Positions 2,038-48,075 of a stretch of 64,000 nucleotides of DNA are shown piece after piece. Made by a program: the position numbers and the translations under genes. Source of the stretch: Thermanaerosceptrum fracticalcis (GTDB taxonomy: Bacteria > Bacillota > Peptococcia > DRI-13); contig NZ_CP045798.1 of NCBI RefSeq assembly GCF_000746025.2, positions 668,501 through 732,500 on the forward strand. Direction: 5' to 3'. The notes beneath the pieces were generated by a model. That model had not been told where the DNA came from. It saw nothing but the letters and a program-made list of their open reading frames with translations, and ran no database searches. Every line of letters begins with the position of its first letter. Position 1 is the stretch's first letter.

Positions 2038-2167
2038 AATCCACCTTAAAGAAAGCTGTTTTTTTGTCTAGTTTTCTTTATTGTAAACGTCAATATCAAA
2101 TGTACCAAAAACGCTAATATTTTTTGTACCACTTTGAGCCAATTTCTACCAATAAAATTCCCAGTAA

Positions 2168-8425: not shown

Positions 8426-8572
8426 TACTTAATGAAGAAACTTTCGAGACCATTATTAATGAGCATGGTGAATCAGTTCTTAATGAAGATTTCAGTATAA
8501 TTGTCCGTGAATTTAAGGAATGGTGCTTGTTCCAAGAAGCCGAGTTAAAAAAATTATTTTTGGAGTAGAAAT

Positions 8573-21154: not shown

Positions 21155-21457
21155 AATAAAGAGAAAATATGATTCAAAGCATAGATAGTAATCATAATTT
21201 TGAGCCTTAATATGGGCTTTTTTGTTAATTTAGCAGTAAAACGATGTAATATTTTGGTATAATTTAGTTGTTTATAATATGAGAATAGTGTTGATGTAGG
21301 AGTTTAAGGTAATCATTGCTCTTAAACTATTACATAATGCTTTATTCAATATCTAATAAAACCATCCCGACTGACAATCTTCTGTCAGTAACAATATGAA
21401 ATAGTTTGCTTACAGGAATCTCAGTTGCTTAATGATATGAAATTGGAGAAATGATAA
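21155..21457 (+). promoter_or_regulatory. Leader region of the large nuclease-helicase cluster
   Basis: After the IS4 end there is a weak hairpin with a T run (AGCC/GGCT, 21203-21222), then an AT-rich stretch with TATAAT at about 21259. The first copy of the cluster palindrome lies at 21371-21388. A -10-like TATGAA follows CTGACA by 18 bases, so the palindrome could cover a promoter. A weak ribosome site GGAG precedes the ATG at 21458. No gene is visible. Confidence 0.5.
21371..21388. promoter_or_regulatory. Cluster palindrome 1 (CTGACAATCTTCTGTCAG)
   Basis: A 7-bp inverted repeat ACTGACA/TGTCAGT surrounds ATCTTC, 87 bases before the TerB-domain gene. The same sequence, including four of six loop bases in fixed order, recurs at 35181 and 41609. 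The size and symmetry fit a dimeric repressor site. A small RNA hairpin is the alternative. Confidence 0.6.
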
Positions 21458-25120: not shown

Positions 25121-25135
25121 AGATAGGTGGTTTGT

Positions 25136-28665: not shown

Positions 28666-29796
28666 TTGAAACCGGTAAAAATACTGCATTGTGCAGACTT
28701 CCATTTCGATACTCCATTTCGTGAACTTTCAGGCACAGTAGCCGAGAAGCGGAAGGAAGATCTGAGAGAAACCTTCGGCAGGGTGGTAAATCTCGCAAGG
28801 CAGGAACGAGTAGACATCATGTTATTATGCGGTGATCTTTTTGATAACCAAATGGTTAGCCGCATGACTATTGATTACCTTATCAGTAAACTGCGCGAAA
28901 TACCGGAAGTACGGGTATTTATTTCACCAGGCAACCACGATCCGTACAATGAAAATTCCTATTATCAGCTGGTTCAGTGGCCGGAAAATATTCATATTTT
29001 TAAGAACACACTAGAAAAGGTAGAGATACAAGAACTTAATACATGTGTCTATGGCAGAGGATTTATCAGGCCGCACCAGCAGGATTCTTTATTGAAAGGA
29101 TTCTCTGTGGATGATTCCACGAAACTTAATATTATGACTCTTCATGGAGACGTTGTCCAACCTGGGCAGTGCAGCGACTACAACCCCATAACCCCTGAAG
29201 AAATCAAGGAAAGCAGACTGGATTACCTGGCTCTTGGCCACCGGCATTCCTATACAAATATTGCTAAAATGGATGACACATCCTGGGCTTACTGTGGTTG
29301 TCCCGAGGGCAGAGCTTTTGACGAACTGGGAGACAAGGGGATACTCCTCGGGGAGCTTCGCAAGGGTAGCTGTAATGTAGTATTTAAGAGTATCAGTAAA
29401 AGAAAATATTTTGAACTTAAAATAGATATAAGCAGTTGTAAGACTTATGAGGAAATAGGAGTAAGCACCCTGGAAAAAGCATCTGTCCTGGAACCGGGCA
29501 AAAACCTGTTTAAAGTAATCCTGCAGGGAGAGATTCCAGAGGATTTTATGTTAAATACCTCGGTGATTAAAGAAAAATTAGAGGATCAGTTTTATTTTCT
29601 TAAGGTTGAGGATGAGACTACAACCAGGGTTGATTCTGAATTGCTGGCAAATGATTTTACACTTAGAGGCGTCTTCGTCAAGAAAATGCTGGAACAAATT
29701 CGGCAAACCCAGGATCAAGCTGATCGTAGAAAAGCTGAATTGGCATTAAAATATGGCCTGCGCATACTCGAACAGGGGGAGGCAGGGATAGAATGA
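28666..29796 (+). CDS. yhaO: YhaO-like Mre11/SbcD-family DNA repair exonuclease
   Basis: Calcineurin-like metallophosphoesterase of 376 residues, expected to be a manganese-dependent nuclease acting on DNA ends. All metal motifs are present: CADFHFD (D11, H13), GDLFDN (about 56), GNHDP (about 89), LHGD and GHRH (about 192). A C-terminal part resembles the capping region that contacts the ATPase. It starts at TTG after a very strong AAAGGAGGT. Its stop overlaps the YhaN-like start as ATGA, the same pairing as yhaO-yhaN in Bacillus, so the two proteins form one complex. Confidence 0.88.
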   Translation: MKPVKILHCADFHFDTPFRELSGTVAEKRKEDLRETFGRVVNLARQERVDIMLLCGDLFDNQMVSRMTIDYLISKLREIPEVRVFISPGNHDPYNENSYYQLVQWPENIHIFKNTLEKVEIQELNTCVYGRGFIRPHQQDSLLKGFSVDDSTKLNIMTLHGDVVQPGQCSDYNPITPEEIKESRLDYLALGHRHSYTNIAKMDDTSWAYCGCPEGRAFDELGDKGILLGELRKGSCNVVFKSISKRKYFELKIDISSCKTYEEIGVSTLEKASVLEPGKNLFKVILQGEIPEDFMLNTSVIKEKLEDQFYFLKVEDETTTRVDSELLANDFTLRGVFVKKMLEQIRQTQDQADRRKAELALKYGLRILEQGEAGIE

Positions 29797-32545
29797 TAAT
29801 TACCAAGCTAAGAATTAAGAATTTTGGAAAGGTAAATGATCTTAAAGTTGAGTTCGGAGAAAAACTGAATGTTGTCTATGGTGCTAACGAAGCCGGCAAA
29901 ACAACAATACTCGCTTTTATTAAGGCCATGCTCTATGGAATGACTTCGCGCAAAAGAGATATCAGAGAAAATGACCGTTTAAGGTTTCAACCCTGGAATG
30001 GAGATTTCGGTGAAGGGGAGCTGTATTTCAGAGACGAAAAAAACGTGAATTTGTAATTAAACGTAAACTGGGGAATGATCGTACCCTAAATGTTTCAGAT
30101 GTTCTAACCGGTCGACGGATACCCAGTTATGAAAGGACCAGCCCAGGCGAGGTTATCCTGGGTCTTGGAGAAGCGGCATTTACCAGGACTATTTACGTTC
30201 CACAGCTTGGCTGTACTGTTTCTCCCGACAGAGATGATGAGATAATGGCCCGCCTTATGAACTTGCAACAAACCGGCGAGGAACAAGTATCCTTGCAAAA
30301 GGCCTTAACTAGTTTAGACAAAGAACGGAAAAAAATCACCATCCGCTCAGGCAATGGTAAGTTGGACAGTTTACGTAATCTGCAGTTTAAATTACGCAAT
30401 GAAAAGGAAAAGGTCCAGAACCTCCATAATGAGAATATTGCTGATCAGTCGGAGTTAAATAATCTTCAGGAAAGAAAAGCTGATCTGCAGAAAAAAACAG
30501 CTGATCTTGAAGAGAAAAGGATCATTCTTAAAAAGCACAAACAGTACTTAGAATATGAGGAACTTAGGAAATACCAGGAAGAATTGAATTCCCTGCAGAA
30601 AGATTTAGAACAAATTGATGAGCATTTGTTGTGTGGAGATAGCTTGGTCGACTCGCAATTTTTGCAGGAAGTACAGACTAACTTAATTGACTGGCAAAAT
30701 AAAGATAAACAGGCCAAGGAACTGGAAAAAGAACTTAAGGAGAAATCTCTGGAGCTGGAAAAGATTGAAGCCGTCCTGGGCGGGTTCCCAGGTTTCGAAG
30801 GACTTGCGGATAATACCGGAGCACAAGTGATCCTTAAAGAGAAAAATAAAGAAACACTAACAGAAAAGCTATCCCTGTTCGAAAAGCAACGTAAAGAAAA
30901 AGAAGAGCTGGAACAGCAGCTCGTGATAAAAAAGTCAGGTCTGGGATTGTTGACTGCGTTCTACGAATTAACTCCAGCGGAAGAGGAGGAGATAGCGAAG
31001 AAAGAAGAATTAAAGCGAAAGCTCGAAGACGAACAGAAAAAAGATTCTCAGGTCGATACCCTCAGACGTGATATTATAAGTGATAAATTAAAGAGCGCAC
31101 AAATCTTTATTGTTTCCGGTCTTGTAGCTGTTGTAGCCGGGATAATCATAGGCTTGGTTTTCCATCCCGTTAGTTACGTTGTCTCCTTATTTGGTGCAAT
31201 TGCAGGTTTCTATGGATTCTCCCAGGCAAAAAAACAAAAAGCTGCCTTGGCTGAAATTGAGAAGCGGCTTTCTACCGCTGGCCAAAGTGATAGTCTGAAG
31301 AAAGAGCTGGAAAAGGTGACTGCCGATCTATCTACTGTCTATCAGCGATTTGGGGCATCGGACAGTCAGCAGTTTGCGGCCCTGAAGAGAGGGTTTGTGT
31401 TAGTAAATAACGAGATAACTATTATTGAAGCTAAAATTCGTGATCGTACAGACCAATTTTCTCCGGAAGAAGAGGAAGAACTTCGCAGCCAGCTGAAAGA
31501 AAGCACTGATTATTTACAAAATATCCTCGCGTTGACTGGCTGTAACTCCGTAAATGATTTTAATGAAAAGCTTAAGAAGTTTTCCGAGCATATCAACTCT
31601 AAGGAAAATATTCGGCGAGAAATTGAAAACTTAAAAAACAGAGTAGATAAGCTTTTCTCTATGATGAGAGAAATTGAAAAAGCTATTTGTGAGAAGCTCC
31701 ATTTGGAGCTTGTCGGCAGGGAAGCTATTGGTAAAGCAGAAACGTTAATAAAAGAGTTTGAGGTAAAGTTAACCAGGAAAAAAGAACTGACAATTCGAAT
31801 TGAGACCAATAAAAAGAATTATCAGGAACGGTTAGCAGGCAGGAGTATGGTGGATATTGCCGCAACAGCTGAAGAATATAAGGCTCAAGATGGTAACGAG
31901 CACGACATAGAAGATGAAGAGGATCTTGAATTGAAGTTGAAGGAACTGAACGAAGAGAGGCTTGATATTGCAAAAAAAATAACCGGTCTGGAAAGCGGGA
32001 TTAGTAACAGGTTTAAAGATTTACGGGATATAGCAACGATTGAAGAAGAGCTGGAGTTAGTTACACAACAAATTAAGCAGTACGAGGAAATACTTGAGGC
32101 TCTGGATTTAGCAAAAAACATGCTGTCAGAATCGTTTGAGGAACTGCAAAACAGTTTCGGCCCCATTCTGAATAATAACGTAGGAAGTATTCTCAAAAAA
32201 ATCACACGGGGCAAATATAGTGATGTGGGAGTAGCTGAGAATTACAGTATAACTATCAAGGATGATACTCAATGGGATAGAGAACTTGAATTCTTTAGTA
32301 ATGGAACCCTGGACCAAGTTTATTTTGCCCTTAGGTTAGGTATCATCGGTTTGGCGTATGACAGTGACATAAAACTCCCCTTAATACTTGATGATACATT
32401 TGTCCAATACGATGATGAACGGTTGGCTTCGGTGCTCGAATATCTATTAGAATACGCTGAACAACACCAAGTGTTATTGTTTACCTGTCACCGGAGGGAA
32501 GCGGAAATATTACAAGGTAAAGAATTTAATTATATTAATATTTAA
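29793..32545 (+). pseudogene. yhaN: YhaN-like Rad50/SbcC-type ATPase with an apparent frameshift
   Basis: SMC-like partner of the YhaO-type nuclease. The N-terminal Walker A is GANEAGKTT (30-38). Long coiled coils surround a hydrophobic pair of segments at about 437-480 (IFIVSGLVAVVAGIIIGLVF), as in YhaN. The signature is SNGTLDQVYFALRL and Walker B is LPLILDDTF. The frame breaks after residue 87 at an A7 run (30037-30043). Restoring one A gives a continuous 917-residue protein, near the usual family length. A second start at 30245 would lack the P-loop. Because the gene is otherwise pristine, a sequencing error or RNA-polymerase slippage is as likely as real loss. Confidence 0.82.
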
Positions 32546-32586
32546 ACATAAGCTTATTTCTAACAAGTAGTGGAAGAGGGGATAAA

Positions 32587-33396
32587 GTGGTTTTTTTTAG
32601 AAATAAGAGCAGGTTTTTCGTAGATTCAGATTTTAAAGCTTTTGACGAATCTCTAGCTCAATCCGAAGATGATCGTGTAATTGCAGCTAGACAATACGTA
32701 GTTGATAATCGGTTTAAGGTATTACATTTTGATCACCAAAGTGGAAATGGTTTAAAGGATTTTTTTCAAACAAATAAACTATACCCTCACTGGCAATTGC
32801 AGCATTTAACAAATGTTTATTGGCCTTATCCTGCTGCAAACGGTGGGTGGGTAGATTATTTACGGATGGGCTACGGGAAAGAAAGGTCATTGGTTCAAGA
32901 TCTTGCAAGAAGGGCTGGCGTATTTAAAGAAATAACAAACTTAGGCGAGAGAGACGCGCTGGCATTCTATTGTGTAACGCAGTTGCAGATAGGATTGAAT
33001 AGTGATTATTGGTGGATTAATCTGTACATTGATAAAAAGGGTTGGATTGAACAGTACAACTTAATAGAGAAGATTAAGGATTTGCACTTAGAGAGTGAGT
33101 TTTATCAGCTGCTTGATAGTATTGCAGAGGAAGGTTATGAGTTTTATATATATCCATACCCCTACGAAGATTCTTTGATTTTTACTGATGGAAGAGATTT
33201 TGTTAAGATGATGCGTGAGTTCAAAAATTTAAAGAAGTCTTGCTCTATAAGCATTGAAAAGACTCATGAACCTAACGATATTAATAATAACCATAACATT
33301 CTAAATTACCTAAAAGGTGAGTTTGCTAAGCTTTTGCCGCTGTATAATTTTATTTCATGGCATCCCAAGAAAAACCATTATTTAATAGGTTTATAA
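32587..33396 (+). CDS. Hypothetical protein within the nuclease cluster
   Basis: 269 residues, soluble, rich in aromatic residues (HWQLQHLTNVYWPYPAANGG and YEFYIYPYPYEDS). The predicted GTG start follows GAGGGG. I recognise no domain. It lies 41 bases after the YhaN-like gene and is followed by a terminator-like hairpin, so it closes the first transcription segment. A role linked to the YhaO/YhaN-like pair is only a guess from position. Confidence 0.7.
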   Translation: MVFFRNKSRFFVDSDFKAFDESLAQSEDDRVIAARQYVVDNRFKVLHFDHQSGNGLKDFFQTNKLYPHWQLQHLTNVYWPYPAANGGWVDYLRMGYGKERSLVQDLARRAGVFKEITNLGERDALAFYCVTQLQIGLNSDYWWINLYIDKKGWIEQYNLIEKIKDLHLESEFYQLLDSIAEEGYEFYIYPYPYEDSLIFTDGRDFVKMMREFKNLKKSCSISIEKTHEPNDINNNHNILNYLKGEFAKLLPLYNFISWHPKKNHYLIGL

Positions 33397-33411
33397 ATGA
33401 CAGTGTTACCG

Positions 33412-33440
33412 GTAGTAGCGATTTATGCTGCTACTTTTTC
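33412..33440 (+). terminator. Intrinsic terminator after the first cluster segment
   Basis: GTAGTAGC (33412-33419) pairs with GCTGCTAC (33427-33434) around a 7-base loop, with one G-T pair, followed by TTTTTC. It separates genes 21458-33396 from the NERD-helicase gene. Confidence 0.65.
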
Positions 33441-33540
33441 CTTTTAATAGATTAGAAAGTGAATAGCTAAGAAGGGAAATATAGCCAGCATGAAGTATTA
33501 TATTGTTTAAACACTACCATGCAAATCGGGGGGATTGGCC

Positions 33541-35184
33541 ATGGCTAAACTTATTCCTGACATTGATCCGGGTACCATTGCTAATGAAGGGGAAAGAGCT
33601 TTTTATTTAGCAGCGAGCCAACTGCCTGAGGAATATGCAGTGCTTTATTCATATAAGTACAAAGGTGATGAATTGGATAAATATGAAGAGCAAATCAGAG
33701 AAGCTGACTTTGTTATTGTCCACGGCAGCTTAGGGTTTGTTGTTGTAGAAGTGAAACAGGGTGAAATAGCTTATATCGACGGTACCTGGCATGAGTTAAA
33801 AAAGTACGGATACCAGCCTCTTCACAAGAATCCGGTTCAACAAGCCCAACAAGCCATGTTTGCTATATTGAAACAATACACCGAGAGAACAGGGAAAAAT
33901 TTCCCCCTGAAGATTAAATACGCAATCTGCTTTCCTGAGTGCAACAAGATTACCGGCCAACTCCCGTCCGATCTGGACCCAAACAGCATTATTCTCTTTA
34001 ATGATTTAGATAGGCTTGAAGACAAAATTTTAGACTTATTCGGTGCTAAAGATATCAGATACCTGAAGGAGGCAGTTGATACTCTCATTAATAAGATACT
34101 TGCACCCAGCTTTAAGGTCTTTGCCAAACTCGAAGATAAAATTGAGATGCATAATCAGAAAACCCACAGAATTCTCACTGAAGAGCAGGAAAGAATCTTG
34201 GATGAGACTGAGCTGGACAAGCGCAAGATATTTTTCGGCGGCGCAGGTTCTGGCAAGACCTTTCTAGCCATGGAAAAGGCCAGAAGGCTTGCTAAAAAAG
34301 GCAGGAAGGTATTATTAACATGCTATAATAAGAACCTTGCCAATTTAATGTTTAACAGTCTGTCTTCTACCGTTACCACGAAAAACTTTCATACTTTTCT
34401 GGATGATTATTTAAGAGAAAATGGGCATGAACTGCCAGTACCCCAAACACCCGAGGAACTGCGGCATTATTTTGATGAAACGTTACCATCCTTGGCTTTC
34501 GATCATTTCATTGACTTATCCGAAGAAAGGAAATTTGATTCAATAATTGTGGATGAGGGCCAGGATTTTAAAGAACACTGGATAACGTGCTTAGAAACCA
34601 TGGTGAAAAAGAATGGGGAATTCTATATCTTTGCCGATCCGAATCAGAGCATATTTAATCAAGAGATCGAGAGAATAAAAAGCATTCCAATTTCCAAACA
34701 CCGGCTCACTAGAAACCTGCGCAACACAGAGGAAATAAATAAGTGGATTGGGGAGTACGTTCCTGGGGATCAATTAAAAAGCGCTATTCCAGGGGGGTTA
34801 CCTGTTGTTTTTTTTAAATGGACATCCCTTCAGGAAGAAAAAAAGCTGATCGAAAATGAGATAGGACGGCTGGTCAGCCAAGGTGTTCAACTGAAAAGAA
34901 TCACTATACTATCTCCTCATACTAAAGAAAAAAGCAGCCTGGCAGGAATAGATAAACTGAAAGAGTGGCATCTGGCGGGAATAGAAACTAATAATGCCAA
35001 TGCCATCAGGTTTTCAACGATACGGGCTTTTAAAGGATTAGAGTCAGACATAGTCTTTCTTATTGGTGTGAAACGGGACAGTCTTGTCTGTACCGATGCT
35101 GATATTTATGTAGGCGGCTCCAGGGCAAAATTTTTACTCTATGTTTTTTATGAAGAAAACTGGAAAAGAGTTAAAAGCTGCTGA
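33541..35184 (+). CDS. NERD-domain nuclease fused to a superfamily 1 helicase
   Basis: About 547 residues. The first 140 form a NERD nuclease-related domain (IVHGSLGFVVVEVKQGEIAY, with the E-x-K core). Then comes a UvrD-like helicase with GGAGSGKTF (about 233), DEGQDF (about 338), FADPNQSIF and a late IRAFKGLESDIVFL motif. Such fusions are thought to unwind and nick or degrade DNA. The ATG at 33541 has a GGGGGG ribosome site at good distance, better than the TTG at 33535. The stop codon lies inside the second cluster palindrome. Confidence 0.87.
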   Translation: MAKLIPDIDPGTIANEGERAFYLAASQLPEEYAVLYSYKYKGDELDKYEEQIREADFVIVHGSLGFVVVEVKQGEIAYIDGTWHELKKYGYQPLHKNPVQQAQQAMFAILKQYTERTGKNFPLKIKYAICFPECNKITGQLPSDLDPNSIILFNDLDRLEDKILDLFGAKDIRYLKEAVDTLINKILAPSFKVFAKLEDKIEMHNQKTHRILTEEQERILDETELDKRKIFFGGAGSGKTFLAMEKARRLAKKGRKVLLTCYNKNLANLMFNSLSSTVTTKNFHTFLDDYLRENGHELPVPQTPEELRHYFDETLPSLAFDHFIDLSEERKFDSIIVDEGQDFKEHWITCLETMVKKNGEFYIFADPNQSIFNQEIERIKSIPISKHRLTRNLRNTEEINKWIGEYVPGDQLKSAIPGGLPVVFFKWTSLQEEKKLIENEIGRLVSQGVQLKRITILSPHTKEKSSLAGIDKLKEWHLAGIETNNANAIRFSTIRAFKGLESDIVFLIGVKRDSLVCTDADIYVGGSRAKFLLYVFYEENWKRVKSC

Positions 35185-35203
35185 CAATCTGCTGTCAGCA
35201 GCT
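35176..35203. promoter_or_regulatory. Cluster palindrome 2, extended to an 11-bp stem
   Basis: AGCTGCTGACA and TGTCAGCAGCT flank the loop ATCTGC, containing the shared core CTGACAATCTGCTGTCAG at 35181-35198. The core starts 65 bases before the AddB-like ATG, the same distance as palindrome 3 from its gene. It overlaps the preceding stop codon. TATGGT 16 bases after CTGACA could serve as a -10 box. Confidence 0.65.
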
Positions 35204-35245
35204 ATGGTAAGAATTATTTTAAAAGCAGATTAAACGGGGGTAAAT

Positions 35246-38200
35246 ATGAGAAACTTCTTGACTTCCCTTAATAAAAAATGTGAAGAGTACCGTTTTGAAG
35301 AGAAAGTCCTTATAGTTCCCTCTCATTCTGCGGGGCAACAGATACTGCAGGCTTTTGCGAGACAGGGCTGTAGCTGTCTTAATCTTAAACCCGATACTCT
35401 TTTTTCACTCGCCGAAGATTTATTAAAACTGTCTCTTTACCGCCGAAGATTAACGTTAATACCTGAGAATTTGGGAAATTATTTACTTTTGCGAGTGTTA
35501 AAAGATCTCTCTTTCCAGCAGAAACTCAATTATTTTACGCAACTTGACATAACGCCTGGTATTAGCAGGTCAATATACTCTGCCATAAACGAGCTGAAGT
35601 TAGCCGGGATTAACTATACAGATATTAAAGATGATATGTTTGTTAACCCTCAAAAGGGGGCTGATTTTAATCTAATCTTTAAAGCGTATGAGGAAACCCT
35701 ACAAAGGAACGGTTTTATTGATGCAGCAGACCTATTGAAAACAGCCATGACTGAAGACATCTTATCCAAGGGTAAGGAAGTATTGTATCTACTACCTGAA
35801 AATCTTAAGCTTTACCCCATGGAAAGACTATTTCTGGAAAAGCTTAGCACTTCCGGTTATCAGGTATTGGAATTTGCTCCTGTACAGGGACTGAATAAGC
35901 CGGAGAAATGTATAGTTTTATCAGGCCAAGAAGGAAAGATAGATGTAAAAACCGATAAAGATCGCTTGTCCTGGTTGTATGACATGGATCATGCTCCAGC
36001 CCCTTTTAATGATAACTCAACCGATTTGTTCCATGCTTATGGTGAAACGAACGAGGTTAAAGAAGTCTTGCGCAGGATTATAAAAAATCAATTACTACTT
36101 GATGAAGTAACGATTAGCTATACATCCCAAGAGCCATACGTACAGCTTTTTTACGACCTATCCCAGCAATATAACATACCTATGACCTTTGGTGAAGGTA
36201 TAGGCATTATAAACAGCCGTCCCGGCAGATTATTTTTTGGTTTATTAGAATGGATCGGGAATAATTACGATGTTTCCCTGCTGATATCCTTGATTAACAA
36301 TGGTGATTTCAGGGTAGATGATGAGAAAGCCGCCCCTTCTAATTCTACAATAATTGCCTTGCTCAGAAATGCAGGAATAGGTTGGGGAAGAGAACGCTAC
36401 AACCAACAATTAGCGATACTTTCCGGGAGCTATGAAGAAAAGGTCGGTAAAGCACAAGAACAAAATAAAAAAGAAAAAAACATCAGGCTTCTTGAAAATG
36501 CAAAGTGGCTCCAAGAGTTTATGGAAAAAATTTTTGTATTGTTACCGGAAGAGATAAACAACAGGGTAGACTATGCTGCATTTTTGCATGGAGTGACAGG
36601 TATTGTTGAGACATTCGGCAATATCACAGGAGATATTGATGGTGCAGCTAAGAAAATTATTATAGACGAATTGAGTTTAATGTCGGCAACGGCCAATGAA
36701 GAAATGAGCCTTGAAGAAGCAATAAAGAGATTAGAAGATCTAGTTTCCGGGATCAGAGTTGGCAGATCAAACCCCAAGCCAGGTGCTATCCATGTCACAG
36801 GCTACCGTCAAGGGCTCTGGGTATTTCGGGAGAATACCTTCGTGGTTGGTCTGGATGCCCATAAGTTTCCCGGGCAATTGAGAGAAGACCCGATCCTGCT
36901 TGATATAGAACGACAAAATATGGGGTTAGGGTTCTTGCAAAGAAAATACCAGGTTAGAGAAAACCTTTACGACATGGTCCAATTATTATCCGCTCTTCCC
37001 GGAAATGTAACGTTAAGTTATTCCTCCTTTGATACTGTTGAAAATAGAGATGTTTTCCCTTCACCGCTTTTGATGCAATATTACCGGTTAAAAACCGGAG
37101 AAAAAACTAAGGACTATTCTCAACTCTTATTAGCCTTTACCGAAAAGAAGGCTTTCGTTCCCAGGAATCTTGCGGATGTTCTAGATCCGACCGAATACTG
37201 GCTAAACCTAAATTTTGTGGCTGGAGGTATAAAAGAACCGGAAAGATCTTTAGTTTCTTGCTACAGGCACTGGGAAAACGGCCTCAAAGCCTGGGAAGCC
37301 AGAAGGAATCATCTATATACATCCTATGACGGCCTAATTAATAGTAACGTTTCCTTAGATCCCCGAAAAAATCATCAACTGGTACTTTCAGCGACCCAGT
37401 TTGAGGACCTGGCTAAGTGTCCCTTTGCTTATTTCCTGAAATATATACTGAGGATAAGCCCGCCGGAAGAACTGGCATTTGACCCGGGAGTTTGGCTTGA
37501 TGCTGCTGCCAGGGGCTCTTTGTTACACAGTATTTTTGAACAATTTTATATGAAACTTATTGACAGGAAAGAAAAACCACAGTTGGGGAAACACCAAGCC
37601 TTAATGTATGAAATAGCCAGCGAATTGTTAAGCAAGCAAAAGGAGATGCTTCCTCCGCCAAGCAGTGTTATTTATGAATTGGAATCCCGCGAAATCCAAG
37701 ATTCCTGCCGGGTGTTTCTGGCCAGTGAGGAAGAAGAATGCCAGGGAGCAGACCCTCGCTTTTTTGAACTGAGTTTTGGAGTTAACGCAGAGGAAACTCC
37801 CGGACTGGGCCAAATTGGTCCGGTATATTTAGAACTCCCCAACGGCGAGGGGCTCTATCTTCGTGGTAGGATAGACAGAGTAGACCAGGTTGGTGATCAA
37901 GTATTCCGGGTACTGGACTATAAGTCGGGGAGCACTTATGTTTTTGAAGAAGGCAAGCCTTTTCAGCGTGGTACCCAATTGCAGCATACTCTCTATGCTA
38001 TGGCCGCAGAAAAAATCCTTTCTCAGTACGGTTTGTTTACAAGCCCTCGTGTGGAAGAAGGTGTTTATGTATTTCCAACCCTGAAAGGTGAAGGGCAAAG
38101 GATTGTCCGGAAATACCACTTGCGGGAAAGACTTCTGGAGATCATTGAAGTCTTGTGTGACATTCTCCATGCTGGCGCTTTTATCATGTCGTTTGAAGAC

Positions 38201-38332
38201 AAACATTGTAAATTTTGTGATTATCCAGAAGTGTGCCGCAGGGAATTATTTGCACCGGTTGTGGAAGCTAAGCTTATAGCCCCTTGTAATCCACAGTTGG
38301 AAAAGGTAAGGAGGTTGGAGGATTATGAGTAG
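35246..38332 (+). CDS. AddB/RexB-like nuclease subunit with an iron-sulphur-type cysteine set
   Basis: 1028 residues. AddB proteins pair with an AddA helicase-nuclease to resect double-strand breaks. The C-terminal PD-(D/E)XK nuclease shows RGRIDRVD (about 874) and VLDYKSG (about 890). One cysteine at about 723 (LAKCPFAYF) and three in CKFCDYPEVC (about 988) form the usual 4Fe-4S staple. The N-terminal helicase-like lobe lacks a Walker A site (VLIVPSHSAGQQI where AddB has one), so it is probably a structural, DNA-scanning module. The gene overlaps the AddA-like gene by 8 bases. A second, housekeeping AddAB would be expected elsewhere in the genome. Confidence 0.85.
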   Translation: MRNFLTSLNKKCEEYRFEEKVLIVPSHSAGQQILQAFARQGCSCLNLKPDTLFSLAEDLLKLSLYRRRLTLIPENLGNYLLLRVLKDLSFQQKLNYFTQLDITPGISRSIYSAINELKLAGINYTDIKDDMFVNPQKGADFNLIFKAYEETLQRNGFIDAADLLKTAMTEDILSKGKEVLYLLPENLKLYPMERLFLEKLSTSGYQVLEFAPVQGLNKPEKCIVLSGQEGKIDVKTDKDRLSWLYDMDHAPAPFNDNSTDLFHAYGETNEVKEVLRRIIKNQLLLDEVTISYTSQEPYVQLFYDLSQQYNIPMTFGEGIGIINSRPGRLFFGLLEWIGNNYDVSLLISLINNGDFRVDDEKAAPSNSTIIALLRNAGIGWGRERYNQQLAILSGSYEEKVGKAQEQNKKEKNIRLLENAKWLQEFMEKIFVLLPEEINNRVDYAAFLHGVTGIVETFGNITGDIDGAAKKIIIDELSLMSATANEEMSLEEAIKRLEDLVSGIRVGRSNPKPGAIHVTGYRQGLWVFRENTFVVGLDAHKFPGQLREDPILLDIERQNMGLGFLQRKYQVRENLYDMVQLLSALPGNVTLSYSSFDTVENRDVFPSPLLMQYYRLKTGEKTKDYSQLLLAFTEKKAFVPRNLADVLDPTEYWLNLNFVAGGIKEPERSLVSCYRHWENGLKAWEARRNHLYTSYDGLINSNVSLDPRKNHQLVLSATQFEDLAKCPFAYFLKYILRISPPEELAFDPGVWLDAAARGSLLHSIFEQFYMKLIDRKEKPQLGKHQALMYEIASELLSKQKEMLPPPSSVIYELESREIQDSCRVFLASEEEECQGADPRFFELSFGVNAEETPGLGQIGPVYLELPNGEGLYLRGRIDRVDQVGDQVFRVLDYKSGSTYVFEEGKPFQRGTQLQHTLYAMAAEKILSQYGLFTSPRVEEGVYVFPTLKGEGQRIVRKYHLRERLLEIIEVLCDILHAGAFIMSFEDKHCKFCDYPEVCRRELFAPVVEAKLIAPCNPQLEKVRRLEDYE

Positions 38333-41300
38333 AATGACACCTCCTGATTATCGTGAACGTGCCAAAATTGAAACCGAACTGGGTAAGAATCTGCTTGTAG
38401 AAGCGGGTGCCGGTTCGGGCAAAACGGCCAGCCTTGTCAAAAGAATGCTTGGTTTAATCAAAGAAGGCCATTGTAAAGTACACGAGATTGCCGCTATAAC
38501 TTTCACCCGTAAGGCCGCTGCGGAACTATGTGAGCGTTTTCAAACAGAATTAGAAAAAGCTTATAACCTAAATTGCGATACTGTACAGAAAGAGAGGCTG
38601 GCTCAGGCACTTTTAGACTTGGACCAGTGTTATATCGGCACTATCCATGCCTTTTGCGCCAAGCTTTTGCGTGAACGACCCGTGGAGGCCGGATTAGATC
38701 CTGAATTTGCAGAATTAGACGAGGTTGAAAACAGGATTTGGAGGGACAAAGCCTGGGATAGTTACATCCTGGAAGTAAAGATAAAGGAACCTTACTATCT
38801 TGAACTGTTTGATAAACTAGGCATTAGTCTAGCTGAACTTAAAACAGGATTCGAAAAACTGAGTGCTTACCCAGATGTTGCTATAGTATACCAAAAGACT
38901 GGAAAACCGGACTTGAAGGAGCCAATTGACAGGCTAGTTTCCTTGGTTGAAAGGGCGAGAGTTGCGATCCCCTATCCTCCCCATGAAAACAGGTATGACA
39001 AATTGCAGGAAGCGGTAAAGAGAGCAAGTAGATATATAAAGTATTTTGACATGGCTCAAGATAAAAATGCAATTAAACTGCTTTCTATCTTTGAAAAAGA
39101 ACCTAGTGTAACTCAAAAGTTGTGGTTAACAACTGCTCAAGGAAAACAATTCAGAGACGAATTCGCTCTTTTGGCAAGGGAGATAATACAACCACTCCTT
39201 CGCCAGTGGCGCGAATATTGTCATGGCAATGTTGTTCAATTCTTGCTGCCTGCTGTCCAATACTACAGCAGGTTTAGGGAAAAACACTCTGTTTTAAACT
39301 TTGAAGACCTGTTAATGAAAACTGCCCAGCTGCTCAAGTCTTATCCTGAAGTACGACAATACTTTCAACAGAAATACCGTTGCCTTCTGGTGGATGAGTT
39401 CCAGGATACCGACCCGATTCAATCGGAAATCATGTTTTACCTGACCGGAGAAAATGCAAATGAACAGGAATGGCAGAAGTTGAAACCCAGGCCAGGTTCT
39501 TTGTTCGTCGTGGGAGATCCTAAACAATCCATTTACCGTTTTCGCAGGGCCGATATAGATATCTATAACCTGGTTAAGAAACTCATTCTACAAAGTGGGG
39601 GAGAGGTATTACACCTTACCGCTAATTTCCGGTCTGTAAATTCTCTGGGGCGGTGGCTTAATCCTGTATTCAAAAAGCTTTTACCCTCTGAAGGAAGCTG
39701 CTACCAGGCCAGCTTTACCTCATTTGATACCATCAAGCCTGATGAGGAAGGAACCGAATCAGGAATAAGAGTTTTAGATATTCCTGAGGAATATAGCAAT
39801 AAGGACGAGGTTATTCCTATAGAAGCTGAATTCATAGCCAGGTATATCAGATGGGCTATTGATGGAAATGTTAGATTGAGAAGAACCCCCAGACCCAAAG
39901 ACTTCATGATTCTTCTCAGGTATAAAGAGGCTATGGATGTATACGCCAGGGCGTTAGAAAAATATGGAATACCTGTCAGTATTGCCGGGGGTAGTTCCCT
40001 TAAACAGACCGAAGAAATCCATGAACTCTTGCAACTGCTGAAAGCCCTTGCCGATCCTCAAAACCAGGTGCATACGGTAGCAGTCTTAAGAGGGCTCTTC
40101 TTTGGGATTAGTGATGCTGACTTATACTCTTTTAAAGAGGCGGGGGGGATCTTCAATATATTTGCACCCGTCCCCGCGGAGTTGGACGAAAGGGTAAAAG
40201 ATATCTTCTTTTATTCCTATGAAAAGTTAACAGAATTCTACGGTTTTACCAGAAGATACACTCCGGCTGTGGCATTAGAAAAAATTATTGACGAACTAGG
40301 CCTAATTCCCTATGCTTTAACTCAACCCCTAAGCAAGAGCCGCTCCGGATATCCATATCAGATTCTTGAATATATCCGGAGAATAGAGAGCACTGAAGCT
40401 TCAAGCTATTCTAAGATGGTGGAACAATTTGGAGCCATCCTGGAAATGGGTGTGGAGGAAGAATTAAACTTGCTTGCAGATGAAGGAGATTCGGTACGAA
40501 TTATGAATCTCCATAAGGCTAAGGGTTTAGAAGCCCCGGTTGTGTTTTTGGCCAACCCTGCAAAGAATCCCAACATACCCCCTGATGCTCATGTCAAAAG
40601 AGTAGATGGCAGTTCACAAGGCTATTTCATCTTTACACGGCCTAAAGGGAATTTTAATAAGGAAGTTATCGCCCAACCCAGGCTATGGGATGAATTTGCA
40701 TCTGAGGAACAGAACTATGCCGATGCGGAAGAAATGCGCCTATTATACGTTGCTGCTACCAGGGCTAAAAACCTCCTTGTTGTCAGCAGGTGCCTCAATC
40801 CTAAAAAGCAAAACTTAAATCCATGGCTTCCTTTGCTGGACAATGAGGAGCAGGTAGAGAGCCTTTGGCTGCCAGAAATAGATAAGGGTTATAGCATTGT
40901 CCAGTCCTTAGGCAAGGAAGATGTGATACCCTCTCATCTGGAAAAGGTACAAACTGAATTAACGCAACGTACGGCTGTTCTCGCCAAACCGAGTTTTATC
41001 TTATCTTCCCCCACGGGAATAAAAGTAGATGAAGATAAGGCTCAAATATTGAGAAAAAGCGGTGGAGGACAGGATTGGGGCAGCGCAATCCACAAGGTTT
41101 TGGAGCAGATGATAAAAGGCTGTAACGACATAGACACACAGATCTTACTAACACTGGAGGAATACTCTTTACCTCTGGAAAGAAAAGGTGAGATACTGGA
41201 TTTCTTAGACAAATTTAAAAACTCTCTGCTGTGGCAGAGAATTCAAAAAGCGGAACAAACCCTTACAGAAATCCCCTTTACTACGAAGATTACCAATGAC

Positions 41301-41579
41301 AGTCCAGTATATAGCTATCTAAAGGCAAAGAATAATGAACCCGTGGTTCTTTCTGGTGTTATTGACCTTGCAATAAAAGAATCCGAGGGTTGGGTTATCG
41401 TTGACTTTAAGACAGACCGGCCTGAGAACCAGGAAGACTTTCAATTGCTGGAGAAAGAGTATTCAACTCAGGTAGCAATTTACTGTAATGTTTGGCAGCA
41501 ACTGAGTGGAGAAAACGTTAAAAAAGGGGAAATTTACTTTACATTCCTTCAAGAAAACAGGGTTGTCTATAGTTGCTGA
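38325..41579 (+). CDS. AddA/RecB-like helicase-nuclease
   Basis: 1084 residues. UvrD-type helicase with AGAGSGKTA (about 27), AAITFTRKAAAEL, GTIHAFCAKLL, VDEFQDTDPIQ (about 357), VGDPKQSIYRFR, MNLHKAKGLEAPVVFL and LLYVAATRAK. It ends in a PD-(D/E)XK nuclease with GVIDLAI (about 1011) and VDFKTD (about 1026). It should drive ATP-dependent unwinding and cutting of DNA ends together with the AddB-like protein encoded just before. Both nuclease sites look intact. The gene ends 95 bases before the vWA gene, in a region rich in TGACA/TGTCA repeats. Confidence 0.88.
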   Translation: MSRMTPPDYRERAKIETELGKNLLVEAGAGSGKTASLVKRMLGLIKEGHCKVHEIAAITFTRKAAAELCERFQTELEKAYNLNCDTVQKERLAQALLDLDQCYIGTIHAFCAKLLRERPVEAGLDPEFAELDEVENRIWRDKAWDSYILEVKIKEPYYLELFDKLGISLAELKTGFEKLSAYPDVAIVYQKTGKPDLKEPIDRLVSLVERARVAIPYPPHENRYDKLQEAVKRASRYIKYFDMAQDKNAIKLLSIFEKEPSVTQKLWLTTAQGKQFRDEFALLAREIIQPLLRQWREYCHGNVVQFLLPAVQYYSRFREKHSVLNFEDLLMKTAQLLKSYPEVRQYFQQKYRCLLVDEFQDTDPIQSEIMFYLTGENANEQEWQKLKPRPGSLFVVGDPKQSIYRFRRADIDIYNLVKKLILQSGGEVLHLTANFRSVNSLGRWLNPVFKKLLPSEGSCYQASFTSFDTIKPDEEGTESGIRVLDIPEEYSNKDEVIPIEAEFIARYIRWAIDGNVRLRRTPRPKDFMILLRYKEAMDVYARALEKYGIPVSIAGGSSLKQTEEIHELLQLLKALADPQNQVHTVAVLRGLFFGISDADLYSFKEAGGIFNIFAPVPAELDERVKDIFFYSYEKLTEFYGFTRRYTPAVALEKIIDELGLIPYALTQPLSKSRSGYPYQILEYIRRIESTEASSYSKMVEQFGAILEMGVEEELNLLADEGDSVRIMNLHKAKGLEAPVVFLANPAKNPNIPPDAHVKRVDGSSQGYFIFTRPKGNFNKEVIAQPRLWDEFASEEQNYADAEEMRLLYVAATRAKNLLVVSRCLNPKKQNLNPWLPLLDNEEQVESLWLPEIDKGYSIVQSLGKEDVIPSHLEKVQTELTQRTAVLAKPSFILSSPTGIKVDEDKAQILRKSGGGQDWGSAIHKVLEQMIKGCNDIDTQILLTLEEYSLPLERKGEILDFLDKFKNSLLWQRIQKAEQTLTEIPFTTKITNDSPVYSYLKAKNNEPVVLSGVIDLAIKESEGWVIVDFKTDRPENQEDFQLLEKEYSTQVAIYCNVWQQLSGENVKKGEIYFTFLQENRVVYSC

Positions 41580-41627
41580 CAAAAATGTTGTCATTTGCAA
41601 AAATCATACTGACAATCTACTGTCAGT
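41575..41627. promoter_or_regulatory. Cluster palindrome 3 with a neighbouring half-related repeat
   Basis: The core CTGACAATCTACTGTCAG is at 41609-41626, extended by A and T to a 7-bp stem, 65 bases before the vWA start. About 17 bases upstream lies TGACAAAAATGTTGTCA (41576-41592), another TGACA/TGTCA dyad that overlaps the AddA-like stop. Two adjacent dyads suggest cooperative binding of one regulator. Confidence 0.6.
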
Positions 41628-41673
41628 CACCTCGTGTATTCTTATCTTAGAGAGTACAGGAGGTGTTTTTTAT

Positions 41674-42921
41674 ATGAATGAGAAAATGGGTATGGAGTTA
41701 TCTTTAAGCCACAAATACCTAAAACCCGGTAGTTGCCAAGTGGTTTACCTGATGATCCGGCTGAAGCAACCCAGATTTGAGAATGCAAAGCGACTTCCTC
41801 TAAATGTAAGTTTCGTATTGGATCGTTCAGGTTCCATGGAAGGGAAAAAGTTGGATTACACCAAAAAAGCCGTGAAGTTTGCTCTTGAGCACCTGGAGGC
41901 TAAAGATACTGTCTCACTGGTAACTTTCGAGGACCAAGTAGAGGTTCTGGTTCCTGCTGAGAAAGCATTATATAAGGACCAAATAAGCCAGGCTGTCAAC
42001 GGAATCGTGACCGGCGGATGTACTAATCTAAGCGGAGGTTTATTGAAAGGAGCGGCGCAGGTCAAGGCCAATCTGAAGGATGGGCAGGTTAACCGTGTGA
42101 TCCTGTTGACCGATGGGATAGCTAATAAGGGAATTACCAGTCATCATGCGCTTGTTGAAAAGACCAAGGAGATTAAGGCTGGGAATATAACAGTATCAAC
42201 ATTAGGTGTAGGATCAGATTTTCAGGAGGATTTGCTTGTTGACATGGCTGAAGGGGGAGGGGGTAACTTCTATTTCATCGGAAGCCCTGACAGAATTCCT
42301 GAGATATTTGATCAGGAATTACAGGGGCTGCTAAGTATTACAGGTCAGAATCTGGAGTTAGCTCTGCTTCCTGCGGCTGGGGTTAAGATCATGGGTATCC
42401 TTGGCTATGAGCCCGCAGGTTGGCCTGAGGTCAAAATTATGCTCCCAGATATGTATGGAGGCGATACCAAAACTGTTTTAGTGGAAATGCTAGTTAATCC
42501 GGAGGTGGCGGGGAAGACGCAGTTGGTACAAGTGAAATTTCGCTATGACGATGTTTTGGAGAACCTGACCACTGTCAATTATGATGTCACACTCAGCGCT
42601 GAAGTTTCCAATGACCAGGAAAGTATCAATTCAGGCGTAGATATCCAGGTCTTAAAAGAGGTAGAGATTTACCGAACTGCTCAGGCTAAAGAAGAATCAA
42701 TTAAAATGGCCGACCAAGGCAATGTAGCGGAAGCAGGGCGAGTGTTGAAGAATCAGCAAGAAAAACTACAAGAACTGTACAATAGAACGAAAGATGATGA
42801 GATTTTGCAGGAAATCCAAACTTTGGAATCGAATTATACGATTATCTCTGAGAATTGTTATAGTCCGATTAATCGCAAAGAAATGAAATACGCCAGCTAT
42901 GTCTCCCGGAATAAACGATAA
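41674..42921 (+). CDS. von Willebrand factor A domain protein
   Basis: 415 residues from an ATG preceded by CAGGAGGTG. A longer frame upstream to 41506 has no support. The N-terminal vWA domain has a complete metal-dependent adhesion site: DRSGS (about 50), TNLSGG and LLTDG (about 144). The domain fold continues to about 260 and resembles inter-alpha-trypsin-inhibitor/YfbK-type proteins. The C-terminal 100 residues are helical (EEVEIYR..., KNQQEKLQEL). No signal peptide is present, so it acts in the cytoplasm, perhaps as a metal-dependent assembly platform. vWA proteins (TerY) are also partners in Ter systems. Confidence 0.85.
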   Translation: MNEKMGMELSLSHKYLKPGSCQVVYLMIRLKQPRFENAKRLPLNVSFVLDRSGSMEGKKLDYTKKAVKFALEHLEAKDTVSLVTFEDQVEVLVPAEKALYKDQISQAVNGIVTGGCTNLSGGLLKGAAQVKANLKDGQVNRVILLTDGIANKGITSHHALVEKTKEIKAGNITVSTLGVGSDFQEDLLVDMAEGGGGNFYFIGSPDRIPEIFDQELQGLLSITGQNLELALLPAAGVKIMGILGYEPAGWPEVKIMLPDMYGGDTKTVLVEMLVNPEVAGKTQLVQVKFRYDDVLENLTTVNYDVTLSAEVSNDQESINSGVDIQVLKEVEIYRTAQAKEESIKMADQGNVAEAGRVLKNQQEKLQELYNRTKDDEILQEIQTLESNYTIISENCYSPINRKEMKYASYVSRNKR

Positions 42922-42965
42922 AGACCTATTAGAATGGAATTAGGGAAAAGAAGCAAGCGGGAGAG

Positions 42966-43916
42966 ATGAATATGCATGAAGATAGAGTTTTTATCGCCGA
43001 AATGAAGGAAGGGAGCAAAATATCTGCTCCTTTCCTGATCAAATCGAAGAGGCTACTGCCCTTTAAAAACAAGACTGGAAAGTTTCTTAATATGATCTTA
43101 GGCGACAAGACTGGGCAAATTGAGGCCTTTCTTTGGGAAAATGCCGAAGATTGTCTAGCACATTTGGGAGAATGTCTTGTTGCCAAAGTGGAAGGGGAAG
43201 TAGAAACATATCGAGAGAACATCCAGATCAAAGTTAATTCCCTAATACCCTGCGACTGTTATGTTATCGAAGAATTGGTGCCTGTCTCTTCCAAGGATAT
43301 TGGCATCATGCAGGTTGAACTAGGGGATGTAATAGAAACAATAAATGATAAAAACCTAAAATACTTACTTAATATGATCACTAATGATCCTGTGAGATAT
43401 AAACTGTTTTGCCGTGCCCCTGCTGCCCAATTTCACCATCAGGCCTATCTTGGAGGACTATTGGAGCATACTTTGGGTGTTGTCAGGGTATGTACTCGTT
43501 TAGCCGATATATATAAAGATGTTAACCGTGATTTGTTAGTTACCGGGGCCATTCTTCATGACATTGGGAAGACGATTGAGTTATCTTACGATCTTATGAT
43601 TGGTTATACGGACCAGGGTCGTCTGCTAGGTCATATTGTCCTTGGTTCGCAAATAGTTGTTGATTTAATTAAACAGATACCGGATTTCCCCAAAGACTTA
43701 GAACTGAAGATTATACATATGATAGTGAGCCACCATGGTGAGTATGAGTGGCAGTCTCCCAAAAGGCCAAAGTTTTTGGAAGCAATGTTGCTCCACTATG
43801 CAGATATGATTGATGCCAAGGTAGATAAATTTACCCAGGTAAAAGAAGATTTAGGAGAGGGACAGGTCTGGTCGGGATGGATAAAAGGATTGGATCGTTA
43901 TGTCTATCTTAAGTAG
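42966..43916 (+). CDS. yhaM: YhaM-like 3'-5' exonuclease (OB fold plus HD domain)
   Basis: 316 residues. An N-terminal OB-fold nucleic-acid-binding part (FLNMILGDKTGQIEAFLWEN) is followed by an HD phosphohydrolase-type nuclease domain with HHQAYLGGLLEHTL (about 157), ILHDIGK (about 196) and VSHHGEYEW. In Bacillus YhaM degrades single-stranded RNA and DNA from the 3' end and is encoded beside YhaO and YhaN. Here all three relatives occur in one cluster but are separated by the AddAB-like genes. The ribosome site GGGAGAG precedes the ATG. Confidence 0.88.
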   Translation: MNMHEDRVFIAEMKEGSKISAPFLIKSKRLLPFKNKTGKFLNMILGDKTGQIEAFLWENAEDCLAHLGECLVAKVEGEVETYRENIQIKVNSLIPCDCYVIEELVPVSSKDIGIMQVELGDVIETINDKNLKYLLNMITNDPVRYKLFCRAPAAQFHHQAYLGGLLEHTLGVVRVCTRLADIYKDVNRDLLVTGAILHDIGKTIELSYDLMIGYTDQGRLLGHIVLGSQIVVDLIKQIPDFPKDLELKIIHMIVSHHGEYEWQSPKRPKFLEAMLLHYADMIDAKVDKFTQVKEDLGEGQVWSGWIKGLDRYVYLK

Positions 43917-43924
43917 GTGAGAAA

Positions 43925-45166
43925 ATGAGCAGGCTGGAGCGGGAGATCCGCATCTACCAGGGGATTGTTGATCAACTGAAAGAGGGCAGAATTGTAGAAA
44001 CCGGTGAGTTATGCACTCTGTTGGGGATTAACGAAAAGACGCTCTTTACTTATCTGGAGTCTGCAGATGCGGCCCTTGATGTGAGCCGGATTTGCCACAA
44101 CGGTAATCTGCTGTGTCGGGAAACTGTTCGACAGTATAACACTGAAAACAGAGTCAGGATCAGCAAGGACATGAACAAATCGGCCCGTCTGGCCAAACTC
44201 ATCAACATTTTAAACCAGCGGACTCCTGCGGGGGGAGCAACACTACAGGAATTGGCGGAGAAGCTGGAAGTTACGGAGAGAACCGTCTACAGGGACCTCT
44301 GTGAGCTTGAGCTGGAGCTAAGCGTGAAAATAATCAGGCCGGACAAAATTGCGGGTAAGAAGGGCAGATACAGGTTGGAGAACACCTACCTTCCTCCCGT
44401 CAGCCCCGATAAAGCCCTCTTCATCTATCTCAGCCTGCTGCAGCAAAAGGGAACGCCTCTTGCCGGCAGAATCACCGAGATCAAGCAAGCCCTGCTGACC
44501 TCCTTGAGCAAGAACCGCTACAGCATCCGGGATATTTCCCTGAACAAGCTGGAGGAGCGCATCCACATTGTTGATCAAAGCCTTTATGAGCAGGAGCGGG
44601 TGGGGCGCTGCTTTCTCACCATCCTGGAAGGACTGGATAAAGGCCTGACATTAAAGATCAAATACTTCGTAGCCTACCGCCTGGAGACGACGGAGCGCCT
44701 GGTGGAGCCCTACGGCCTGATCTGCAAGCATCACAACTGGTACTTAATCGGCAAAAGCCTGGACAAAGGAGAACTGCGCAATTTCCGCCTGGACCAGGTA
44801 GAAGAAGCCCTGCTCTACAGAGAAAAGCCTTTTGTCTACCCCAGGGATTTCTCCGTCAGCGATTATGCCCATGACAGCTGGGGCGTCATCCAGGACGAAG
44901 AAGTCGTGGAAGCCATCCTGCGCTTCACCCCGGAAGGGGGCTACCGCCTGAAGAAAGTCCAGTACCACCCCAGCCAGGAGATCCTGGAAGAAAAGCCCGA
45001 CGGTTCCGTGGTTGTCCGCTTTTGCCTGACGGGTACGGTGGAATTCATCAGCTGGCTTTTGCAGTGGGGGAACAAGGTGGAGGTGCTGGCCCCGTCGGAG
45101 CTGCGAGAGCAGGTGTTAAAAACGGTAGAGGGGATTGTGAAGGTTTACAACAATACGTGTATTTAG
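43925..45166 (+). CDS. WYL-domain transcriptional regulator
   Basis: 413 residues. A first helix-turn-helix (LCTLLGINEKTLFTYLES) is followed by an HTH_11-type one (LQELAEKLEVTERTVYRDL, about 108-126), then a WYL domain (YGLICKHHNWYLIGKSL, FRLDQVEEALLY) and a WCX-type C-terminus. WYL proteins bind ligands, often nucleic acids, and repress defence operons (BrxR, CapW types). It starts 8 bases after the YhaM-like stop and 11 before the next gene. It is the only clear transcription regulator in the block and the best candidate to bind the three palindromes. From about 44200 on, the bases look more GC-rich than in the genes before it. Confidence 0.9.
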   Translation: MSRLEREIRIYQGIVDQLKEGRIVETGELCTLLGINEKTLFTYLESADAALDVSRICHNGNLLCRETVRQYNTENRVRISKDMNKSARLAKLINILNQRTPAGGATLQELAEKLEVTERTVYRDLCELELELSVKIIRPDKIAGKKGRYRLENTYLPPVSPDKALFIYLSLLQQKGTPLAGRITEIKQALLTSLSKNRYSIRDISLNKLEERIHIVDQSLYEQERVGRCFLTILEGLDKGLTLKIKYFVAYRLETTERLVEPYGLICKHHNWYLIGKSLDKGELRNFRLDQVEEALLYREKPFVYPRDFSVSDYAHDSWGVIQDEEVVEAILRFTPEGGYRLKKVQYHPSQEILEEKPDGSVVVRFCLTGTVEFISWLLQWGNKVEVLAPSELREQVLKTVEGIVKVYNNTCI

Positions 45167-45177
45167 GGGGTGCATCA

Positions 45178-47992: not shown

Positions 47993-48075
47993 TGGGAAGT
48001 TTAATTTTTTAAGATTCGCTTAAGTATGAGGAGGGGACAAGCCCCAATCCCGTCCTAAAAAGAATACAATTAATT

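Follow-up and report, generated by a model that had tools for sequence, protein, structure and literature searches.

Shango is a set of three genes with demonstrated anti-phage protection in Pseudomonas (PMC10250203), and the yhaONM cluster of Bacillus pumilus is listed in the LexA/SOS regulon (PMC3896406). Two WYL-domain regulators of defence systems, BrxR and CapW, are repressors that work on inverted repeats (PMC9122601, PMC9122588), and the CapW sites overlap the -10 element (PMC9122588). As described there, each represses one or two promoters, and the joint switching-on of defence islands is poorly known. Other WYL proteins are tied to repair, checkpoint or dinB-like genes. DriD, seen with single-stranded DNA (ssDNA) and RNA polymerase in structure 9PFQ, has sites that overlap a poor -35 element (PMC12340889), and PafBC and SiwR work from the -26 region (PMC10693628).

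Here, a gene cluster is compared with these systems in a 64-kb stretch of Thermanaerosceptrum fracticalcis DNA, referred to as the window (positions 668501-732500 of a single-contig, 3.81-Mb genome that is 99.67% complete). The cluster runs on the plus strand from SngA to a JAB protein (21458-47992). We find it reasonably likely that it is a defence island of separately moving modules, probably run as one regulon by a WYL protein. A sequence-only reading of this DNA had placed relatives of YhaO, YhaN and YhaM around an AddAB-like pair. It proposed either that helicase-nuclease genes were inserted into an ancestral yhaONM operon or that the operon was recruited into a defence cluster. Recruitment fits what is seen. 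Shango opens the cluster, and a WYL regulator lies 3' of YhaM.

Three proposed units and a shared palindrome

The first of three proposed units starts with Shango, as judged by its genes: an SngA-like protein (21458..25120; PADLOC SngA, 418 bits; Pfam TerB_N and TerB_C), an SngB-like ATPase of the BrxC/D family (25127..26464; PADLOC SngB, 660 bits versus 178 for BrxD) and an SngC-like helicase (26461..28650; PADLOC SngC, 849 bits) lie side by side on the plus strand, like all genes below. The three genes, their order and their profiles match known Shango. This set differs in being trailed by YhaON-like genes and in having a palindrome ahead of SngA. After a gap of 15 bp comes a YhaO-like metallophosphoesterase of the Mre11 type (28666..29796; Pfam Metallophos, with SbcD/Mre11 structure matches), then a YhaN-like ATPase of the Rad50 type with one frame break near 30040 (29793..32545). 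A 269-aa protein (32587..33396) would complete the unit; it was assigned to no family and had zero Pfam, PADLOC or NCBIfam matches at 0.001. The second unit would be a divergent AddB-AddA helicase-nuclease, recognized by Pfam and NCBIfam profiles (AddB-like nuclease, 35246..38332; AddA-like helicase-nuclease, 38325..41579), and a NERD nuclease-helicase gene precedes it (33535..35184; PADLOC RTasNERD-Hel, 260 bits). The third would comprise a vWA protein (41674..42921; Pfam VWA), a YhaM-like protein with OB and HD domains (42966..43916) and the WYL regulator, which has HTH, WYL and WCX domains and starts 8 bp past the YhaM end (43925..45166). The vWA start is probably 41674, where ribosome-binding-like sequence precedes the ATG, rather than 41506. 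The genes named in the sequence-only reading are real and in the order it gave, with YhaM about 10 kb downstream of YhaN after the NERD-helicase, AddB/AddA-like and vWA genes.

The same exact palindrome, TGACA-N6-TGTCA, was found ahead of each unit. It lies at 21372..21387 (70 bp before SngA, counted from its last base), at 35182..35197 before AddB, where a -10-like hexamer follows 11 nt after, and at 41610..41625 before vWA, with an N7 variant at 41577-41593. Three exact copies in the 64-kb window compare with 0.05 expected, and 0/100 shuffles reached three; with one mismatch permitted there are four, versus 1.65 expected. The palindromes before SngA, AddB and vWA suggest at least three transcription units. 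A weak terminator-like hairpin from a consensus scan, 3' of the 269-aa gene (33411..33435, plus strand), fits this, though such hairpins occur in the region at chance number (18 observed, 14.2 in shuffles).

The palindrome recurs outside the window. In G038, a genome from another family of the same class, it also lies 5' of AddB and 5' of vWA. It precedes AddB in two further loci (L232 and L236), a 147-aa gene and then AddB in G403, and YhaM in G225, G101, G055 and G319, the YhaM of G319 being in two frames. Two near-twin genomes, G289 and G312, have the gene order ARPP-1, YhaM, WYL with the palindrome 5' of ARPP-1. RecQ in G225 and HIRAN in G055 and G319 also have it upstream, as does, in G319, a 121-aa gene with McrBC-like genes after it. 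Six of 73 usable stretches before AddB score at least 9/10, versus 0.7% of random 320-bp stretches. These stretches come from a larger AddB scan with an alignment as query, which matched 227 stretches, of which the best 80 were kept; seven of the 80 loci were unusable, with no plus-strand AddB frame with 300 bp ahead of it. The six include L234 (G038) and leave out L270 (G403), where the 147-aa gene stands between site and AddB.

A -10-like hexamer (at least 4/6 matches to TATAAT) starts 11 nt past the palindrome in 16 of 20 sites. No other offset accounts for more than five sites, and the maximum in 500 shuffles over all offsets is seven. The PafBC promoter motif likewise has an 11-nt spacing. 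The 20 sites are not independent: G319 gives four, G055 and the window three each and G038 and G225 two each, and G289 and G312 are near-twins. Excluded from the count are L231:2186, L230:9267 and L301:9469, the 9/10 AddB sites in L268, L272 and L283, three remote sites of the own genome, the N7 variant at 41577 and duplicates across loci. Sites near WYL genes, exact in L365 and 9/10 in L358, L360, L361, L364 and L366, also stand outside it.

Several of our counts speak against a single regulon. Of the AddB stretches, 67/73 score below 9/10. Among the 30 top YhaM loci, 27 lack a palindrome in the 420 bp ahead of YhaM; the window locus is one of them, although there, as in G289 and G312, the site lies one gene further upstream. 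The NERD-helicase has no palindrome of its own, and the hexamer before SngA is at +12, leaving two of the three window sites with the +11 spacing. The whole genome holds six palindromes versus three for a reversed control, which is chance level outside the window. Since three of the six are in the window, the excess is limited to the cluster. A LexA box as the identity of the palindrome was tentatively set aside, the genome having only these six sites.

The WYL regulator and its proposed regulon

All eight palindrome genomes tested contain a relative of the WYL protein (E 1.7e-115 to 3.7e-54), as does one of 13 comparison genomes (6.4e-31; threshold E<=1e-30). The comparison genomes have YhaM and no palindrome within 420 bp before it; the remaining 3 of the 24 are vWA-WYL genomes. 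In five of the eight (G038, G403, G319, G289, G312) a WYL gene near the palindrome was known beforehand. The other three, G055, G101 and G225, were picked by palindrome, with a partial WYL match in G225 (L356) already known, and L232 and L236 were not included. Under the wider regulon proposed below, the regulator would act in trans where its full-length gene is on another contig (G101, and G225, which also has one partial copy on the same contig) or 28 kb from YhaM (G055).

A search of 299 genomes gave relatives of vWA at E<=1e-40 in 11, the own genome included. WYL adjoins vWA in four of the ten others (G161, G155, G188 and G211, the last at just 28% identity), and a further point against the regulon is that in six of the ten the 12-19 kb fetched contain nothing that matches WYL. 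In G155 (L338), type I-B Cas5/Cas7 genes lie a few kb from vWA-WYL, and in G211 (L340), a type III Cas10 and a CARF protein lie beside it.

We consider it quite likely that the palindromes are one WYL operator. The best PDB match of the WYL protein is the DriD-ssDNA-RNA polymerase complex 9pfq (E 1.1e-16, tied with 8tp8); three unnamed WYL chains rank between it and PafBC 6sj9 (1.1e-13). Like DriD, PafBC and SiwR, the protein has the HTH-WYL-WCX architecture and may have its sites in the -26/-35 region ahead of a weak promoter, and unlike them it is tied to defence genes. We lean slightly towards its acting as an activator. A repressor of the BrxR/CapW type, released on phage infection, would leave modules and operators unchanged, and its probability overlaps with that of the regulon reading. 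Such repression is possible, as the defence WYL regulators BrxR and CapW act as repressors at inverted repeats (PMC9122601, PMC9122588) and a palindrome at about -39 to -24 could block RNA polymerase. It seems rather unlikely to us, as DriD, the top structural match, is an activator, PafBC matches too and a fixed 11-nt spacing to the -10 fits an activator, whereas CapW sites overlap the -10 (PMC9122588). The locus shares with BrxR and CapW the presence, within a defence island, of a WYL regulator and palindromic sites, and differs in having the same exact operator on three units and a promoter layout and nearest structures that point to activation.

Under the WYL-run regulon, each unit is headed by the palindrome, which spans roughly -39 to -24 relative to the predicted promoter, and the WYL protein, most like the ssDNA-sensing DriD and PafBC, would bind there as a master switch. 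The signal may be ssDNA from phage attack or DNA breaks, upon which the WYL protein would recruit RNA polymerase to the three units. Once induced, the enzymes would work alongside Shango to unwind linear or broken DNA and break it down, with the AddAB-like pair working from ends, the Mre11/Rad50-like pair at ends or hairpins and the YhaM-like exonuclease trimming 3' tails. If this is true, ssDNA made during phage attack would induce the whole nuclease set at once. As a more tentative proposal, TGACA-N6-TGTCA-N11-(-10) under a WYL activator of the DriD/PafBC kind could define a second, SOS-like regulon of defence and DNA-processing genes. It would include Shango, AddAB-like and vWA-YhaM here, and RecQ, HIRAN-ARPP-1, ARPP-1-YhaM and McrBC units elsewhere. 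One exact sequence, the proposed operator, precedes three unlike defence units; its candidate regulator is encoded in the last of these, and other genomes can be scanned for the element. No published account of a TGACA-N6-TGTCA operator or of a vWA-YhaM-WYL cassette was found in literature judged mostly by titles and the openings of abstracts.

YhaM loci elsewhere resemble the ARG/ARPP-1 systems in their WYL, vWA, HIRAN, ARPP-1 and ADP-ribosylglycohydrolase partners; YhaM is absent from the main text describing those systems (PMC9503650). The window differs, with no ARPP-1 or ADP-ribosylglycohydrolase among its scanned proteins. ADP-ribosylglycohydrolase genes, as in ARG systems (PMC9503650), were seen in the palindrome-YhaM loci of G319 (L316:12584-13537) and G101 (L348:10436-11089).

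YhaO-YhaN and YhaM as probably separate modules

The yhaONM arrangement in the window was compared with that of Bacillus (YhaN = SbcE). That yhaO, yhaN and yhaM are neighbours in Bacillus, as the sequence-only reading stated, agrees with the B. pumilus cluster (PMC3896406). Homologues of all three are present here, and yhaO and yhaN overlap by the ATGA that it had reported (yhaO stop and yhaN start, 29793-29796). The differences are that yhaM is 10 kb off in the vWA-YhaM-WYL unit and that YhaO falls outside the sampled yhaM-linked clade. The YhaN-like gene is real but not intact in this sequence: translation from 29793 ends at a stop (30054-30056), beyond which a different frame stays open as far as 32545.

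This broken YhaN frame counts against the regulon reading. The pair may be of the Mre11/Rad50 type, a metallophosphoesterase adjoining a Rad50-like ATPase whose frame is broken in the window but whole in G038. There, yhaN (L050:2022-4778) is a single open frame of 918 aa with a Rad50 match at its N-end, and the two sequences differ at the break by one base within an A-rich run. Past the break they show 37, 38 and 127 differences at codon positions 1, 2 and 3. This third-position bias means that selection held the protein until recently or that the break is a consensus error. A slippery-looking A-rich heptamer stays in frame at the break, but programmed -1 frameshifting was thought unlikely: downstream RNA folding is no better than in shuffles (z 0.50) and the G038 relative requires no shift. 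A base-call error or a recent mutation is an equally likely cause.

The YhaO-YhaN pair is a module that moves on its own. YhaO matches at E<=0.001 occur in 38 of 60 relatives, with close copies in G038 (92%), G014 (73%), G016 (62%) and G025 (50%), and none in G001, the sole same-genus genome (80% complete). In all four, yhaN directly follows yhaO, and the 20-40 kb fetched around these YhaO genes contain no match to AddAB or YhaM of the window type. In G038, a BREX operon (BrxC, PglX, PglZ and BrxL profiles) lies about 5 kb upstream of YhaO-YhaN and the 269-aa gene. The 269-aa gene there (L050:4820-5627) is split in two pieces of 89% and 96% identity, and it lies 3' of yhaN as in the window. 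The 92% copy near BREX in another family and the lack of one in G001 are what indicate independent movement. The pair looks like a mobile companion, close to Shango in the window and to BREX in G038. In a tree of 42 rows, the window YhaO clusters with those of G038, G014, G016 and G025 (100/100), apart from the YhaO of yhaM/addBA operons. The YhaO relatives on plasmids (89 records) are all below 60% identity. Lamassu was rejected, since only LmuB-like similarity is seen, in the YhaN part (48.7 bits), and YhaO, the YhaN part and the 269-aa protein match no LmuA model; for three longer proteins of the cluster, the comparison covered the best 25 matches each.

YhaM goes with vWA and WYL instead. 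On contig C91 of G038, a NERD-helicase remnant (79%), AddB (49%) and AddA (53%) are followed by 12.5 kb of other genes and then by vWA (59%), YhaM (64%), WYL (50%) and a metallophosphoesterase (35%). The G038 YhaO-YhaN pair sits on a contig separate from vWA-YhaM-WYL, and contig C41 holds SngB-SngC (52%, 48%) and a metallophosphoesterase-JAB pair (55%, 79%). The window YhaM scores 176.6 bits with the NCBIfam YhaM profile and a second YhaM in the genome (631573-632481) 268 bits, both below the cut-off of 460. In a tree of 35 rows, the window and G038 YhaM are joined (99/98) away from the genome's other YhaM.

These data bear on whether an ancestral yhaM-yhaO-yhaN-addB-addA repair operon was broken up, with its pieces drifting within one locus. 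Such an order exists: it runs on one strand in G086 and G126 (L209, L214) and partly in G160, and G209 has a yhaO-yhaN-yhaM run; the run in G086 and G126 may be worth studying as a natural repair cluster. In addition, a YhaO-YhaN relative stands one gene ahead of AddBA-like genes in L278, and in G056 YhaO is the gene immediately 5' of AddB-AddA. That these functions group together is therefore meaningful, not accidental. The window YhaM is 46-51% identical to that of G086, G126 and G160, and the YhaM tree does not separate it from operon YhaM and so allows kinship between them. These runs and this tree are points for the sequence-only reading. On the other side, identity between the window YhaO and its counterparts in G086, G126 and G160 is only 21-25%, and they fall in different clades; the window AddB is about 25% identical to the AddB of these genomes versus 33-49% to the other AddB family, and G038 has YhaM without YhaON and YhaON without YhaM. 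The window proteins are not the closest kin of those operon proteins, with YhaM as a possible exception. We judge a rearranged repair operon to be improbable. Modules rather than a split operon are very probably the right description: yhaO, yhaN and yhaM are not contiguous in the window and are likewise apart in G038. That gene order, with YhaM between vWA and WYL and YhaO-YhaN on another contig, and the YhaO tree led us to reject a split yhaONM operon and do not fit the insertion of AddAB into one.

The divergent AddB-AddA pair and the cluster borders

The window pair resembles AddAB (RexAB) in its addB-addA order, in the UvrD helicase and PDDEXK domains of AddA and in the PDDEXK domain and conserved Cys of AddB; the AddB PDDEXK residues and four Cys columns are invariant in 15/15 aligned sequences. 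It differs in forming a separate family, far under the curated NCBIfam cut-offs (AddA 305.4 bits, cut-off 707.65; AddB 76.7 bits, cut-off 903.7), and in having a canonical AddA elsewhere in the same genome. That AddA (1332024-1335734) scores 1329 bits versus 156.8 for the best piece of the window locus, and an AddB match adjoins it (1336336-1337448). Since these and the second YhaM are present, the window AddAB and YhaM are extra, divergent copies, which separates the housekeeping-type proteins from the defence-linked versions. The search for housekeeping copies that the sequence-only reading had called for thus succeeded for AddAB and YhaM. It failed for YhaO, as no second one was found in the genome at E<=0.001 save a small metallophosphoesterase in the same cluster, in a search that did not use SbcD/SbcC profiles.

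Relatives of the window AddB (at least 275 bits) occur in 18 of 397 other genomes sampled from the phylum, and the best 80 stretches kept from the larger scan come from Bacillota plus several other phyla. With a single protein as query, a scan of genome contigs gave zero relatives; the alignment query did find them. An AddA match is present in 77 of the 80 kept loci, and of the 74 that have an AddB frame, 71 show an AddA start within 400 bp of the AddB end. One Omnitrophota locus (L297:813-16232) has a complete Shango set (SngA 313 bits, SngB 590 bits, SngC 926 bits) in one row with AddB, AddA and, between set and pair, an MkoC-like helicase-nuclease, a point in favour of the island reading. 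AddB was rejected as a phage gene, with no relative from a pattern scan of viral contigs. 

A reading as core DNA repair rather than defence would gain from genomes in which this type is the only AddAB. Of the 18 genomes with an AddB relative, seven have an AddA above the curated cut-off, one (G118) has a weaker second AddA, two (G224, G127) have AddA matches only far under it and eight have no AddA-profile match at 1e-30. This last figure stands against a defence role, since this AddAB type may be ordinary repair, and perhaps the sole AddAB, in those eight. Core repair would also fit the RecJ-like gene placed immediately before addB in some loci. For this cluster, we regard it as a poor prospect, given the canonical AddA with its AddB match, Shango at the cluster's start, the sporadic spread between phyla and the inverted insertion sequence (IS) copies that flank the cluster. 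The AddAB-like pair is an extra copy in this genome and could be the only AddAB elsewhere. The RecJ-like DHH/DHHA1 gene abuts divergent addB (gap 0 to -38 bp) in 8 of the 80 named loci, from Syntrophomonadaceae and relatives (L242, L246, L247, L250, L252, L253, L260 and L298, with the profile run on L260 alone).

Past the WYL gene lie a PDDEXK_4 gene (frame 45022-46248, true start probably later), a second metallophosphoesterase (46300-47121) and the JAB protein (47168-47992), all recognized by Pfam; we are unsure whether they belong to unit 3. Two inverted copies of one 1.64-kb IS with a DDE transposase bracket the cluster (16984-21160 and 48069-49704; 98-99% identical), an arrangement like that of a composite transposon. 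An IS21 element with IstB, also present at 2082-4618, splits the left copy, and a third copy of the 1.64-kb IS lies at 6795-8433. An HTH protein, a dynamin-like GTPase and a PLD-like protein (52517-55450) give weak MkoB/Leo profile matches and have a 31% relative in the G038 island. Elsewhere in the genome, an AAA_15 protein followed by a UvrD-like helicase (3285905-3288785) is presumably Gabija-like, and frames of 287, 218 and 1131 aa (3100190-3104197) form what we take to be a Wadjet-like set.

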